Shown piece after piece: positions 24,001-64,000 of a stretch of DNA of 64,000 bases. The number at the start of each line of letters is the position of its first letter. Position 1 is the stretch's first letter. The notes below the pieces were generated by a model, which was not told where the DNA came from, searched no databases, and saw nothing but the letters and a program-made list of their open reading frames with translations. The DNA lies in contig JADLBW010000059.1 in assembly GCA_020847515.1 (NCBI GenBank), positions 1 through 64,000 on the forward strand. The letters run 5' to 3'. The DNA comes from Pirellulales bacterium. GTDB lineage: Bacteria; Planctomycetota; Planctomycetia; Pirellulales; Lacipirellulaceae. The translations under genes and the position numbers were made by a program.

Positions 24001-24041
24001 GTGAGCGAGCAAGGCAACGGAGCCAACCGATCGCCGATCAC

Positions 24042-24124
24042 CTCTCACCCCTTATCTCCGACCTCCGACCTCCGACCTCTGACCTCCGACCCTCACCTCT
24101 CACCAGTCACCCCCCACCAGCCAC
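24042..24124. repeat. Intergenic heptamer array (CTCCGAC-type)
   Basis: CTCTCAC CCCTTAT CTCCGAC CTCCGAC CTCCGAC CTCTGAC CTCCGAC CCTCAC CTCTCAC CAGTCAC CCCCCAC CAGCCAC. Confidence 0.8.
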
Positions 24125-41080: not shown

Positions 41081-41148
41081 TCGGCTATCGGCTAGCGGCC
41101 AGAATTAGGCCTTTCCCCTCTGGCCGTCGGCCGCTAGCCGCTAGCCGA
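41081..41148. repeat. Inverted heptamer arrays (CGGCTA(G/T)-type)
   Basis: TCGGCTA TCGGCTA GCGGCCA GA ... TC TGGCCGT CGGCCGC TAGCCGC TAGCCGA. Confidence 0.75.
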
Positions 41149-41292
41149 CAGCCCGGCAGGGTGCATTAGTCCCGCAGTTCTCAATAGACGTATAAATCCC
41201 GAGGAAACCGGCAAAGCAAGGAGGTCGTAATTGACGTTTTGTGGCTAAAAGGTCACCATAAGTGCCTGACTCGTCGAAGGAATTACCCCGCC

Positions 41293-56938: not shown

Positions 56939-56946
56939 GCGCTGTC

Positions 56947-57041
56947 GTTGTTCGTTGTTCGTTGTCCGTTGTCGGTCGTCCGTCGTCAGTTGTTAGCAGC
57001 CAAATACTTGTCACAACTTACAACGGACGACTGACAACTGA
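56947..57041. repeat. Inverted heptamer arrays between sigma and anti-sigma-like genes
   Basis: GTTGTTC GTTGTTC GTTGTCC GTTGTCG GTCGTCC GTCGTCA GTTGTTA ... CAACTTA CAACGGA CGACTGA CAACTGA. Confidence 0.85.
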
Positions 57042-57047
57042 CTTCCC

Positions 57048-57686
57048 CTACTCATACAACTCCGGAAACACGTCTTCGCTCAAGCGCTGTTGCTTGAGAA
57101 ACTTTCGCAGACGCTCCAGAAAGTCGAATTTGAAGTTCGCCACCTGCTGCTCTGAAAGCCCCAGCCGCTCGGCAACCGATTTGTTCGTCTCGCCAGCGAC
57201 AAACAGCAGTTCCATGCACTTCACCTTATCCCAATCGCCGGCCTCGCGCCATCCTTCGAGTTGCCGCGTGATCGCTTCGGCAAGGGCCTCGTCTTCCAGT
57301 TGCTTGCGTTCGCCGCTGCGGGCGATGCTGCTGGCTGGGCGGGCGCCCCCGGCAGGTTCCCAATTGCCGCCGCTGCCGTCGGCCGACGACAGCGGAATCG
57401 CCGGCCGCCGCCCCTCGCGCCGCAGGTAGTCGGTCAGCTTATGGCTGGCGATCGTGAACAGCCAGCTCTCCAGCGGCCGCCGCGAGTCGTAGTTCGGCAG
57501 GCTGGTCAGAAAGCCGATGAACGTCTCCTGCACTACGTCTTCGCTCGCGGCGCGGCTGTGAAGGCGGCTGTCGACGAAGGACAACAGGCGTCCCTCGTAG
57601 ATCGCAATCAGATCGCTCCAGGCGTCGGGTTTGCCGCGACGAATGGCCTCGACCAGCAGCGCGTCGGAATGGGCGGAAGTCGGCAT
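57048..57686 (-). CDS. ECF-type RNA polymerase sigma factor
   Basis: 'SEDVVQETFIGFLTSLPNYDSRRPLESWLFTIASHKLTDYLRREGRRP' (region 2), 'VKCMELLFVAGETNKSVAERLGLSEQQVANFKFDFLERLRKFL' (region 4). Confidence 0.9.
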   Translation of the reverse strand: MPTSAHSDALLVEAIRRGKPDAWSDLIAIYEGRLLSFVDSRLHSRAASEDVVQETFIGFLTSLPNYDSRRPLESWLFTIASHKLTDYLRREGRRPAIPLSSADGSGGNWEPAGGARPASSIARSGERKQLEDEALAEAITRQLEGWREAGDWDKVKCMELLFVAGETNKSVAERLGLSEQQVANFKFDFLERLRKFLKQQRLSEDVFPELYE

Positions 57687-57737: not shown

Positions 57738-59939
57738 TCAGCCGATCAAGCCGAGCAAGACGCCCATCGCCAATCCAACGCCGATTATCGCCGCCGGCAC
57801 GCCGATAAACAACCGCTTCGTATAAAAGCCCCGGGTCCAGGTATCGACCTTCAGCAGCCCCAGCGCGCAGGCCAGCCCCCCCAGCAGACACGCCCCGAGG
57901 CCCGCCACGGACGCCACCCGCTTGGTCCGCATCGCGCTCTTCCAGCGATCCAGCAGGAACTCGTCTTGCTGCGGCGTAAACTCGAGCAGCGCATGGGCCC
58001 GCAGCATTTCGCCAAATGAGGCCTTGACCGTTTCTACGTAGTCTGGTTCGGGGCACAGCTCGCGCAGGATATAATCGGAGCCGACTCCCATATCATCCAG
58101 CGACGGGCCGCTGGCGACGGGCCGTCCGGCGACCTGCTGCGCGAGCTGCCGCACGCGATCCGCCACGGCGTAGCGCAGGCGATCCTCTAACTGTACGTAG
58201 CATTCCTCGACCGTGCTGAACGGATCAGTCGAGACGACCATGCGGCGGGCGTTGCCCACGAGCCCCGGCGGTTGGTCGACCCACTCCGGGCGCTGGTCGG
58301 TCGTGTACTTCTTGACGAACGGCTTTGCCGCGGCGACGGCTGCGTACATCGGCCCAGGATGCTCGCCGCGCATGGCGGCCTGCCAACGTTCGACGAACGC
58401 GGCATCCTGTTGTGGCGTAACCTGCAATAGGGCGTGGACCCGCTGGCGCTGGCCGCCGGAGGCTGTGTCAATCTCGACGTAGTCGGCCACGCATAGCACG
58501 CGGCAGATGTACTGGGCGTCGACGCCCATGTCTGCGAGCATGGGACCGCGGAGCACTTTGTGGCCGATCGCCTTGCTTACCGACTGCCGCACCCGGTCGG
58601 CGACGGCATAGCGAAGACGGTTTTCGAGCTGAGCGCGGCACTCTTCGACCGTAGCAAACTGATCGGTCGAAACCACGACGCGGTAGACGCCGGCATGCTC
58701 GCCGGTCGGTTGATCGAGCCAATCGGGGCGCCCGCCGATCGCTTCCGCCTGGGCCTGCGGCTCGGCGGAGGCTCGCGCCGTCGCAACCGGGGCGGCCGTG
58801 GTTTCGGCCTGCGCCGGCGAACCCGGAGGCATTTCGACCATAGGCGCCTCCCCAGGCGTCGCTTTGACCTCGGGCTGTACTGCCGCCATAAGCTCCGGAG
58901 AGACGCCGTCGTTGGCTTCGCCCGCAACGGCCTTGGAGGCTTGAACGATGGCCTTAGCGGCGTTGGTCAACCAGCCTTGCGTGAACGGATCGGCCGCCGG
59001 CAGCGACTGCGCCAGCACCAGCCTTGCCGCCTCGGCCAGTTCGCGCTGCGAATTACCTTCCAACGTTCGCGACCGTTCTGCCAAATTGATGCGCGGGGCG
59101 GTTAAATGCGACCAGATCGAGTCCAGCGACTTGAAATCCTCCCTGTGGTCTTGCACTTCGTCGTGAAATTCCTCGATCGCCTCGGGCAAGGCCTCTGCCA
59201 GTGGATCGCCAATCGCGGGCTGAACCAGGGGCTGCGGCGGCAACTGAGGCAACGCCTCGACCAGCGGCGCTGGCTTATGGACCGCGCGGCTGCCGCCGAC
59301 GAACAGGCCGCCCACCAGCAGCATGCCGGCGCCGACGCCGATCCACGACCACCCGGAGCCCTTGCGCGGGCAACCGTTTCGGCCCTTTCTGAGCAATAAG
59401 AACGCGACCGACAGTACCCCTAGCGGAATCGCCAAGACGGCGAAGCTGAAATGAGCCGTATGGACGGCGCCCTCAGCGAAAGGCGTATAGAACGAGCCGC
59501 CTGGCAAGTCGTCCGCTTCGCGGATGATCTCCCGCTTGCCAGTCGCCCACTGTTGTTTGACTTGCATCCCGTCGGGGTACGTCTCCAGTTCGCTGCCGTC
59601 GAAGGATGCTTGAACGGTCGCATCGCTCATGCGGGCGGCCAGCCGCTGGTTCTTGAGGATTTCAGCCTGTTGCCGCGCCCGGGCAAGCTGCTGCTCCTGC
59701 GGGCGCCACGGCTGACCGACGCGCGGGCCGCCCGGTTCGCTCCACACGGTGCGTCCGACGACGACATGGGAGGACGTCTGCCCCCGCGCCAGCAGAAAGA
59801 TTCCGGCGGCCAGCGCGACGATCACGACGATCGTCAGCGGTCTGGTGCGCAAGCTGAACAGTACGATCAGTCCCAGCGCTGTTAAGACCACAACTATGGC
59901 GCCCATGGTTCCCATTCCAATCGTGCCAGATTCCGTCAT
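57738..59939 (-). CDS. Membrane protein with tandem ~125-aa repeats
   Basis: N- and C-terminal TM helices; '[30 protein letters not shown]' and '[30 protein letters not shown]'. Confidence 0.75.
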
Positions 59940-62068
59940 GCCGATTTTTGCGCCAGCTCGCGCCGGCGGCTAGGTGAAAGCCACGGACTGGAAAGCTGAA
60001 TCGTAAAGGCGATCACCACCGCGAGCATCAGCCCAATCGGTTGCGGAAACCACCAGAAGAACGTCATACCCCAGGCGATAAATCCACACCACGCGATTGT
60101 CCACAAGCTCACGCGCGACATGCGCGTCCACTCAGCCAGCCTCCACCAGCGAAGCACCGCGAACAGAAAGGCGAAGTAAGCCGCGTACATCCCCGGCTGC
60201 GGCTGCACCAGTCCTTGGCGATAGCCCCCGTCGAGCGGGCCGTACCGATCGCGGAAGACTGCCCCGAAAAACGAGTCCGTCGGGCCAGGAGCGACCTCGC
60301 TGGACGCCGGCAAACTAAGGAACAGCGATTGCGCCAGCGCCCAAGCCGCGACGCCTACTAACGCTCCCAGTAAGAGTTGCGCGAACCGCAGCGGAATGTG
60401 ATCTTCGACATGGCCCTCCGCCAACTGCCCCGGGACCATCAGCGCCCATGAGCCCAGCGTAGCTACGGTCGCCGTCCAAAGGGTAAACTCCGAGGAAAAG
60501 CTCTCCGGCGCCGCGAGCATGCAGATCAGCACGGCGGCCACCGGCGCTATGATTCCGGCCGCCAGCATCGAACCTACGAGGGAACTGGCCCGTTCCCGCA
60601 CGGTGCAGCATCGCAGTTGTTCATAGGCCGACTGCCGCCAGCCCGCCTGCCCCCGCTTACGCCAAGGTCGCGACTGCACGGGCGCCGGGACCGCTTGCGC
60701 TGCAACGGGGTGGGCGGGAACGTCGGCCCGCGGCGCCTCTCGCTCGATATTTTGCCGTTCGACCGCGGCGAACGCCGGTGCATTGCCACCCTGATCTCGC
60801 GGCTGAGAGTGCGCCTGCGGATAGGGATTGACGGTCGACGCGCGGACGATGATCCGCAGGATCCGATAGCCGACGTAGGTGCATGCCGCCATGGATAGCA
60901 GCGGGATCAGTACGGCGCTAATCGCGGCAAAAAAGAAGAAACAAAAACCCGCGAACAGAATCTTCCCGGTTACGGTCCATTGCTCGAAATTGAGATCTTT
61001 GCGAGTCGCCGCGGCGCCCGCCTTGACGCTCTCCCAGATCGGTTCAGGATCGCGATGGAAGAAGGCGATGATTCCCTCGTCCTGGCGGTCCTTGGAACGC
61101 GGCCGGGCGCCGCCGCGTCCCGCCGGCGGCGACGCGGCGTGGCCTTGCCCATCACCACTGCCGGCGAGCGGGCGAACGTACTGCGCCGTGTCGAACGCTT
61201 CGCGAGTCGCCCGCGGCACGCCGCGGAGCATCGCCGCCCTGCCGGCGGCGGTGTTGATGCGCCTCTCGGGATCCTTCGCCATCGCCCCGTGAACAACGTC
61301 GCGAAACGGTTCCTCGACCGCCTCCAGGCACGGCTCGGCCGTCAGGTGTTTCATCAGGACTTCCCCGACGCTCTCGCCCTCGAACGGCACATGGCCGGTG
61401 AGCATTTCGAACAGAATAATGCCCAGCGCATAGGCGTCGATCTCGCGCCCATAACGGCCGTTGGCGATTTCAGGCGCCATGTAATGGACGGTGCCGACGC
61501 TTTCGGTCTGGCCGCTGCGGCGGCTGCAGGAGATGAATTTCGACAGCCCGTAGTCGCCAATCTTGATGGTGCCGTCGTCGATGAAGATATTGGCCGGCTT
61601 CAAGTCCCGATGGACGATGCCGTGATCGTGCAAATACGCGACGCCAGCACAGATGCCGTCGAACCAGCGGCAAACATCTTCCCGCGGCATGCCTTGCGGA
61701 TAGCGCTCGATGACGTCCTCCAGCGATTCGCCAGAGACGTATTCCATGATCACCCAGCGATCCTCGTGCTCGTCCGAGCGGATGTCGTAGAGATCGATCA
61801 GGTTGGGGTGCTTAAGGTTCAGGCAGTGCGTGACCCCGCGGAGTTCGACTTCCAGATTGCGGCGAATCAGCTTCAGCGCCACCTCTTTGCCGGCGTCGCT
61901 TACGGCGAAGTACACCTCGCCGAAACCGCCGCGCCCAACGCCGCGTTTGATCGTGAACCCCTCCAGCGGCCGCGAGCCGCTGGCGTAGGTGAATCGCATG
62001 GGCGTCTTCGCCTGGAGGGCCGGCTCATGCTCAGCGGGCGAGGTGTTCATTTCCAAGAGGGCGGCCAT
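59936..62068 (-). CDS. Serine/threonine protein kinase with C-terminal TM region
   Basis: '[22 protein letters not shown]', '[29 protein letters not shown]', '[34 protein letters not shown]'. Confidence 0.96.
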
Positions 62069-62275: not shown

Positions 62276-63736
62276 TCATATCTCCTCGAGGCTCAGGGCG
62301 AACTCGTCGCATTCAATCCGGCAATTGGGGGCCACCGACGCCTGGCCGACGCAGGTTTGGCCGTCGATTTCCAAGGGCGCCTGCGTCCGGCACATCAGGT
62401 GGTCGCCGCGCCGGAACAGCACCAAATCGCCCGTCCACTCGCGGCAGCGGATGTGGCTGTGCGATTGGGGGCCCAGGATGCAGCTTTCGCTCATCAGGAT
62501 GATGCCGTCGACCGCCGGGTCGGTCCGGTGACGAGACGCTATTTCCAGGACAGCCGTGGAACTAAGAGCGTGCGGCTTACGGAAGCGAAGTTCCACTCCG
62601 TCGCCTAGCCGGATGGTTGACTTGTCGCGGAGGACGGTCGGTTCGGTGATTGGCCGGCCGTCGACGCTTGTTCGGTGGAGCGGCGTGAGCACATAGGCCT
62701 CGCGGTCGCGGCGGATGACGGCATGCCGGCGGGATAGATCGCCGAGGATCGGCACGTCGACGCCCCCCTCGCCAGAGGGCTGTCCGATGACGACCTCGTC
62801 CCCCGTGCAAATGAGAAATCCGCCCACCTCGTCGATCCAGGCGACGATTCGCTGTCCGGCGTTACGCTCGCTCACGGTATCGACCTTGGCGTGTTGCGGG
62901 TGGCTGGTGCTACGGGCCGCCGGCGGAGACTGGCGGCTTGGCTTCCATTGCCGAGCCCGCGCTGCCGGCGACGGATAGTGCGCCAGCGTCACCTCCATGC
63001 CAACAGCCATCCACGCCTTCTGGCGGGCCTGCCGGGCCGCCGAATGCCTAGGAGCCAATTCTAGCAGGGCCTCGGCCACAGCGAGCACTTCCGTCCAGTT
63101 CGACGCCGCCACGGCTGCGTGCAGCCTGGCGTCGAGGGCTTGCTGTTTCTCCGCCGTCGTGCGCAAGGCCACCAGCCGCCGGGCGACGTAGCCCTCGACC
63201 GCCGCCGGCGGACTGGCCGGCATCAGTTGCTGGGCGAGCTCGACCGATTGAATGGCCGAGGGAAGGTCGCCCTTGCGGGCGTACACGTCGGCGGACTGAA
63301 GGTATTGAGCAATCATGTGCCACGTACGACGCTCGGCCCCGCCGAGGCGCCGGTGATCCATCTGTTGCAGGGCGGCCATTGCGGCAGTCGACTCGCCGCG
63401 GCCTAATAGCTCCAGCGCCTCGTCGAGGCGGCGATGGCCCTCCAGGTGGCGGAAGTCGCCGATGGCTGCCTCGTCGGCCCCGAGCCGAGCGGCGCGATCC
63501 AGATCGCGCCAGCCCGCGGTGCTCTGGCCATGCTCCATGCGCTGGCGGGCGCGCTCCATCAGCCGCACGGCCAGTTCCTGGGAGAGTTTCTTCGCCGGCC
63601 AGAACTCGCGGAGCGGCTCCTGCACCAGCAGCTCGGCCGCCTCGTCCCATCGGCCGTCGGCCACGGCCAGCCGTGCTTCGCGAAGTTGAAGTCGCCAGGC
63701 GGGGAACATGGGAGTGAACTTCCTGCGTCGAGTCAC
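62276..63736 (-). CDS. FHA domain-containing protein with helical repeat N-terminus
   Basis: 'VDVPILGDLSRRHAVIRRDREAYVLTPLHRTSVDGRPITEPTVLRDKSTIRLGDGVELRFR'; alternative start at 63709. Confidence 0.88.
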   Translation of the reverse strand: MTRRRKFTPMFPAWRLQLREARLAVADGRWDEAAELLVQEPLREFWPAKKLSQELAVRLMERARQRMEHGQSTAGWRDLDRAARLGADEAAIGDFRHLEGHRRLDEALELLGRGESTAAMAALQQMDHRRLGGAERRTWHMIAQYLQSADVYARKGDLPSAIQSVELAQQLMPASPPAAVEGYVARRLVALRTTAEKQQALDARLHAAVAASNWTEVLAVAEALLELAPRHSAARQARQKAWMAVGMEVTLAHYPSPAARARQWKPSRQSPPAARSTSHPQHAKVDTVSERNAGQRIVAWIDEVGGFLICTGDEVVIGQPSGEGGVDVPILGDLSRRHAVIRRDREAYVLTPLHRTSVDGRPITEPTVLRDKSTIRLGDGVELRFRKPHALSSTAVLEIASRHRTDPAVDGIILMSESCILGPQSHSHIRCREWTGDLVLFRRGDHLMCRTQAPLEIDGQTCVGQASVAPNCRIECDEFALSLEEI

Positions 63737-63810
63737 GGGTTCGGGAGCCTTTTGCGACTGGCGTCATTGCTTCGGATGAAGATCACCCAGTCGCAAAAGG
63801 CTCCCGACCC
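63737..63810. repeat. Dispersed palindromic repeat, copy C
   Basis: GGGTTCGGGAGCCTTTTGCGACTGG / CCAGTCGCAAAAGGCTCCCGACCC. Confidence 0.85.
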
Positions 63811-63872
63811 CATTCGCGTACCATCGGAACAAGCGCCCGCCTATCAAGGAACGAACGCTATAGCATGTCAAA

Positions 63873-63948
63873 GGGGTCGGGACGCTATTGCGACGGGCGA
63901 GCTGCTCTGAGACGGCAAGTCGCAAGTCGCAAAAATCGCCCCGACCCC
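63873..63948. repeat. Dispersed palindromic repeat, copy D
   Basis: GGGGTCGGGACGCTATTGCGACGGG / AAGTCGCAAAAATCGCCCCGACCCC. Confidence 0.8.
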
Positions 63949-64000
63949 GCGTCGATCAGTCTGCGTAGCTGGCAGTGTGGACCGGCGTTTCCGCCTTCGC

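Follow-up and report, generated by a model that had tools for sequence, protein, structure and literature searches.

The window, by which we mean the whole 64,000-nucleotide stretch of DNA that was analyzed, carries on its minus strand a gene for an ECF sigma factor followed by a gene for an anti-sigma-like protein. Table 1 shows the features of this locus. The 109-bp gap between the two genes is filled by an array of heptamers that stops 8 bp before the anti-sigma-like start codon, and the open reading frames confirmed that the array lies between the sigma stop and the anti-sigma-like start, where an earlier preliminary description of this DNA had placed it.

Table 1. Features of the sigma/anti-sigma locus, with positions in the window
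Feature	Position	Strand	Basis and remarks
Anti-sigma-like gene, 132 aa	56540..56938	-	Open reading frame; follows the array in the direction of transcription
First arm, seven degenerate heptamers	56947..56995	-	GTYGTYN on the plus strand, RACRACN on the minus strand; units next to the spacer form the stem
Spacer (loop) between facing arms	56996..57013	.	Sequence and comparison of copies
Second arm, about four RACRACN units	57014..57042	+	Sequence and Tandem Repeats Finder
Dispersed palindromic element proper	56963..57043	.	Alignment A1; model R1 matches both strands (E ~1e-18; this sequence is itself part of R1)
ECF sigma factor gene	57048..57686	-	Sigma70_r2 1.1e-15; TIGR02937 4e-20; precedes the array in the direction of transcription
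Hypothetical gene, 733 aa	57738..59939	-	No Pfam family; upstream of the sigma gene, same strand
Ser/Thr protein kinase gene	59936..62068	-	Pkinase 1.7e-52; its end overlaps the next start

The anti-sigma-like product had no match in Pfam. An ortholog of its gene was found downstream of the sigma gene in all 29 relatives, mostly less than 300 bp away, and H87, C93 and C96 (an Hx5Cx2C motif), together with C62, are invariant across the 30 orthologs. The invariant motif fits, without proving, a zinc-binding anti-sigma identity of the protein. The genes for the Ser/Thr kinase and the 733-aa hypothetical protein (57738-62068) immediately precede the sigma gene and share its strand, and the kinase, the 733-aa protein, sigma and anti-sigma possibly form one signalling operon.

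We then analyzed the array itself. Its letters and coordinates in the preliminary description were correct when compared with the sequence and with an independent run of Tandem Repeats Finder, which returned 56946-56993 (period 7, 6.9 copies) and 57013-57042 (period 7, 4.3 copies). The first arm had been described as seven perfect units; there are seven, but they differ among themselves at positions 3, 6 and 7. The complementary set said to follow it is also present as facing units, but the two arms are separated by a spacer of 18 bp and only about four units per arm pair. In 100 shuffles of the window, three or more consecutive RACRACN units did not occur once, and the array at 56947-57042 is far beyond chance. 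Tandem degenerate 7-bp units of this kind characterize heptameric simple-sequence, or STRR-type, repeats.

The RNA fold of the transcribed strand at the array has a free energy of -48.8 kcal/mol (z = -4.5), and none of the shuffles folded as well, which upholds the proposal that the two halves can pair. The three outer units next to the anti-sigma start are largely unpaired in this fold. When the paired degenerate positions were compared among copies, no covariation was found: 85.9% of the cells pair, versus 86.7% in shuffles. Since the pairing share is no higher than in shuffles, it is the fixed letters of the word that account for the pairing, and compensatory pairing between the arms was rejected. 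Facing arms matched each other at 0.70 and the arms of other copies at 0.59, a difference that we do not count as evidence because the element so compared had also served to set the boundaries. The stem has no U-tract directly after it, and no terminator-like site was found on the minus strand of the gap, so an intrinsic terminator was rejected; similar tandem hairpins in three genomes were followed by at least 5 T in 9 nt in only 9 to 14% of cases. A described Rfam RNA element was also rejected, the sole match being below threshold and inside the sigma gene.

The array is one of many. In the whole 4.18-Mb draft genome, a pattern of three units gave 56 matches, compared with 1 for the reversed-pattern control, which bears out the expectation of further arrays elsewhere in the genome. 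About 22 array loci were located in 362 kb of the source genome, nearly all of them intergenic, and plasmid records contained no match to the repeat. Alignment of copies from three genomes showed that the element consists of two arms of about 30 nt, each with four heptamers, RACRACN facing GTYGTYN across a variable loop. The copies share a stereotyped arm, GTC-AGTTGTC-AGTGGTC-CGTTGTC-AGTTGC, and the four-unit arm with its end motif GTTGC/GCAAC is common to RACRACN palindromes at dozens of unrelated loci. Most loops are 20 to 30 nt long, and for the most part they are unrelated; a minority resemble one another (13 of 276 pairs, versus 1 when shuffled). The copy between the sigma and anti-sigma genes is built on the usual four-unit arms, with three further units added on the side of the anti-sigma start.

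Copy numbers were estimated with R1, a covariance model built from 18 copies. Up to 150 candidates were scored per genome, so the counts are lower bounds, and palindromes match the model on both strands, so the number of copies is about half the number of matches. The source genome gave at least 42 matches on both strands, or about 21 places (roughly 20 copies). Two congeners, G002 and G003, gave at least 90 and at least 114 matches, or at least 45 to 57 copies, while at least 36, 19, 38 and 41 were found in G001, G004, G006 and G028, respectively. In several other genomes there were no matches among the candidates scored.

Like REPs, the element is a dispersed extragenic palindrome. REPs carry an unpaired GTAG or CGTC tag at one end. 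The element has no GTAG, and CGTC stands at the left end of 10 of the 18 copies, where its GTC belongs to a heptamer and lies opposite GAC of the facing arm. Mobilization by a RAYT was rejected, as Y1_Tnp counts across genomes do not follow the copy numbers of the element. The source genome has two weak Y1_Tnp matches, and the one inspected was free of heptamer arrays for about 1.5 kb around it. No sign of mobility in the form of excision, empty sites or target duplication was seen, the orthologous gaps having diverged beyond alignment. The element thus falls outside both REPs and intrinsic terminators in membership, and its distribution resembles that of REPs.

At the sigma/anti-sigma locus, none of the orthologous gaps in the 29 relatives with the same gene pair carries a RACRACN array. 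These gaps range from 9 to 1004 bp; some contain other hairpins or heptamer words (L040, L041, L049, L057, L061 and L062), and many contain nothing notable. Strong RNA folds (z <= -3) were found in 6 of 18 testable sigma/anti-sigma gaps, a count that includes the source gap itself, compared with 27 of 120 control tandem gaps. The difference is not significant, and a special hairpin slot at this gap was rejected. The absence of the array from the relatives and the lack of hairpin enrichment indicate that the gap is not clearly specially structured and that the array in the source genome is recent or fast-evolving.

Period-seven repeats extend well beyond the RACRACN family. In an unbiased 298 kb of the source genome, strong self-identity of intergenic DNA was seen in 31 windows at lag 7, 20 at lag 14 and 8 at lag 21, versus at most 2 windows at every lag not divisible by 7; within genes, 4 windows were seen at lag 7. 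Mainly intergenic period-7 arrays spread over the genome are typical of STRR-type repeats. Many words are used in the source genome (GGCTRTC, GACCTCY, GGATTTC and others). Relatives differ in this respect, with periods 8 and 9 also present in G002 and G023 and almost no repeats in G022. A facing complement scoring at least 12 accompanied 38 of 96 arrays (paired arms being counted twice), compared with 1 of 96 for a direct copy. Unit identity falls with distance within arrays, from 0.85 at lag 7 to 0.75 at lag 35. The word TGACAAC also occurs in Cyanobacteria (many Nostocales), Acidobacteria, Bacteroidota and other genomes, and the flanking DNA there likewise has an excess at lag 7 (in cyanobacteria 79 windows versus 13 for the next best lag that is not a multiple), although these loci were selected for the word itself. 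The analogy to cyanobacterial STRRs drawn in the preliminary description is therefore apt.

Several individual gaps were also inspected. The window contains an ACCTCYG array in a tandem gap, immediately ahead of a gene start (24040-24124), facing GGCTATC and GCCGCTA arrays in a 615-bp gap (41081-41153), and a gap with GCAAGTC heptamers and a near-perfect hairpin formed by GGGTCGGGAGCCTTTTGCGACTGG and its complement (63710-63955), whose orthologs in G002, G003 and G004 have unrelated hairpins. In congeneric gaps orthologous to L087:8092-8170 (L369-L371), long and sometimes nested imperfect hairpins are built from words of the CACAGAG, CGCAAAGG and CACGAAGG types with periods of 7 to 9, outside the RACRACN family.

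Inverted repeats followed the orientation of the flanking genes. They were found in 23, 13 and 0% of convergent, tandem and divergent gaps in G000, 39, 35 and 6% in G002, 69, 41 and 23% in G023, and 78, 9 and 0% in G038, while G022 departed from the trend with 27, 12 and 19%. In tandem gaps, the center of the inverted repeat was almost never found in the quarter of the gap closest to the downstream start.

These results bear on several explanations of the array. It had been proposed that unit number tunes the sigma:anti-sigma ratio, the array being a dedicated cis-regulator that acts through the strength of the stem or through the spacer before the anti-sigma start. The strong predicted stem in the transcript and the closeness of the array to that start agree with this, and so does folding in silico. 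The mean accessibility of 21 nt at the start codon was 0.46 with the native array and 0.55, 0.36 and 0.24 with one, two and three outer units deleted, so that removal of two or three units lowered it. The effect of unit number is a folding prediction, according to which the start codon could be sensitive to the extra outer units. However, the array is absent from 29 relatives that keep the gene pair, the same element is scattered beside unrelated genes, the paired positions do not covary and the gap is not enriched for hairpins. We therefore regard a dedicated regulator as very unlikely, and a rheostat based on unit count at this gap is unsupported. Another possibility is that a heptamer seed was expanded by replication slippage, with inverted halves arising by template switching and with neither dispersal nor function. 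Single arrays that change word while keeping the register of seven (L074:1519-1568, L108:15510-15588 and L073:9374-9433) look as if each unit had been copied from its neighbor with errors, and the decay of identity with unit distance and the many words in one genome point the same way. Slippage does not alone predict the fixed four-unit arm and its end motif at dozens of unrelated loci, and we consider it unlikely as a full account.

It is also conceivable that selection keeps some gaps as long hairpins even as the heptamer word changes from one species to the next. In the L073 gap, five congeners all have inverted heptamers, each with a word of its own, and where a source-genome gap has an inverted repeat, 68% of the orthologous gaps have one, versus 18% otherwise (38 gaps; permutation p ~0.002, and p ~0.03 for gaps without sequence similarity). 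Other genome pairs showed no significant concordance (G003-G002, odds ratio 2.5, p 0.20; without similar gaps, 1.7, p 1.0), the numbers are small, and the neighborhoods were chosen because the source genome has arrays there. Word exchange at conserved slots is thus suggestive in source-genome gaps and was not replicated elsewhere. Such slots are quite improbable as the explanation, and it is similarly doubtful that, within the genus, the sigma/anti-sigma gap is one example of a conserved structure with interchangeable sequence.

We favor the reading, with a probability of roughly 0.65, in which the array is a single copy of a palindromic repeat with heptamer arms that is dispersed through intergenic DNA and restricted to this lineage. 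On this reading it acts at most as a generic REP-like hairpin and is not a conserved regulator. The repeat occupies a non-promoter gap between co-directional genes, and its three extra units may have arisen by slippage. If sigma and anti-sigma are co-transcribed, a long stem-loop lacking a U-tract would stand between the two messages, at most a generic 3'-end stabilizer or partial barrier. E. coli REP hairpins stabilize RNA 3' ends without causing termination (summarized in PMC13289151), and by analogy the stem-loop could stabilize the sigma message, trim it, or insulate the anti-sigma message in part. The orientation distribution is explained equally well if repeats are neutrally tolerated wherever a gap has no promoter; because such tolerance predicts the same distribution, a role of the repeat in RNA is something that we infer.

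In this lineage, heptamer-built palindromes, described in Xanthomonas and with repeats known in Cyanobacteria, make up a major part of the intergenic DNA, and the same heptamer word is reused across phyla. The strictness of period seven and the persistence of slots despite word change can now be tested with complete congeneric genomes. The sigma/anti-sigma locus cautions against taking a scattered repeat for a gene-specific regulator.

The element represents a new family within a known kind of repeat that is intergenic, dispersed, built of heptamers and often inverted. The literature searched, coverage of which was incomplete, gave no account of it in planctomycetes, and a text search for the repeat sequence returned unrelated matches only. 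The STRR heptamers of filamentous cyanobacteria form degenerate arrays with several words per genome and are able to fold into hairpins. The arrays studied here share these properties, and TGACAAC occurs in Nostocales; they differ in host phylum, and the palindromic architecture described here is that of the source genome and its relatives. TAACTGA direct repeats of Beggiatoaceae, Cyanobacteria and Bacteroidetes often lie just before start codons (MacGregor 2015, PMC4679880). They too are intergenic heptamer sets with a patchy distribution across phyla, but their word is fixed, nearly all are direct with one inverted, and related words are rare as direct repeats (PMC4679880). REP/BIME palindromes are enriched in convergent and unidirectional gaps (Di Nocera 2013, PMC3733652). 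Like them, the element is a dispersed palindrome of such gaps that is plausibly transcribed as a stem-loop; unlike them, it lacks the GTAG tag, has arms of tandem heptamers, and no RAYT neighbor was found. The closest known system is the GGGAATC heptameric repeats of Xanthomonas, which form paired inverted sites, about 70 inverted pairs per genome (Rehm 2015, PMC4692102), commonly with four units and mainly between co-directional genes, few being between divergent ones (PMC4692102). Both systems have degenerate heptamers, four units, an intergenic orientation bias and variation between close relatives, whereas the repeats described here have a different word, use many words per genome and contain no G-tracts, and thus have no basis for a G-quadruplex.
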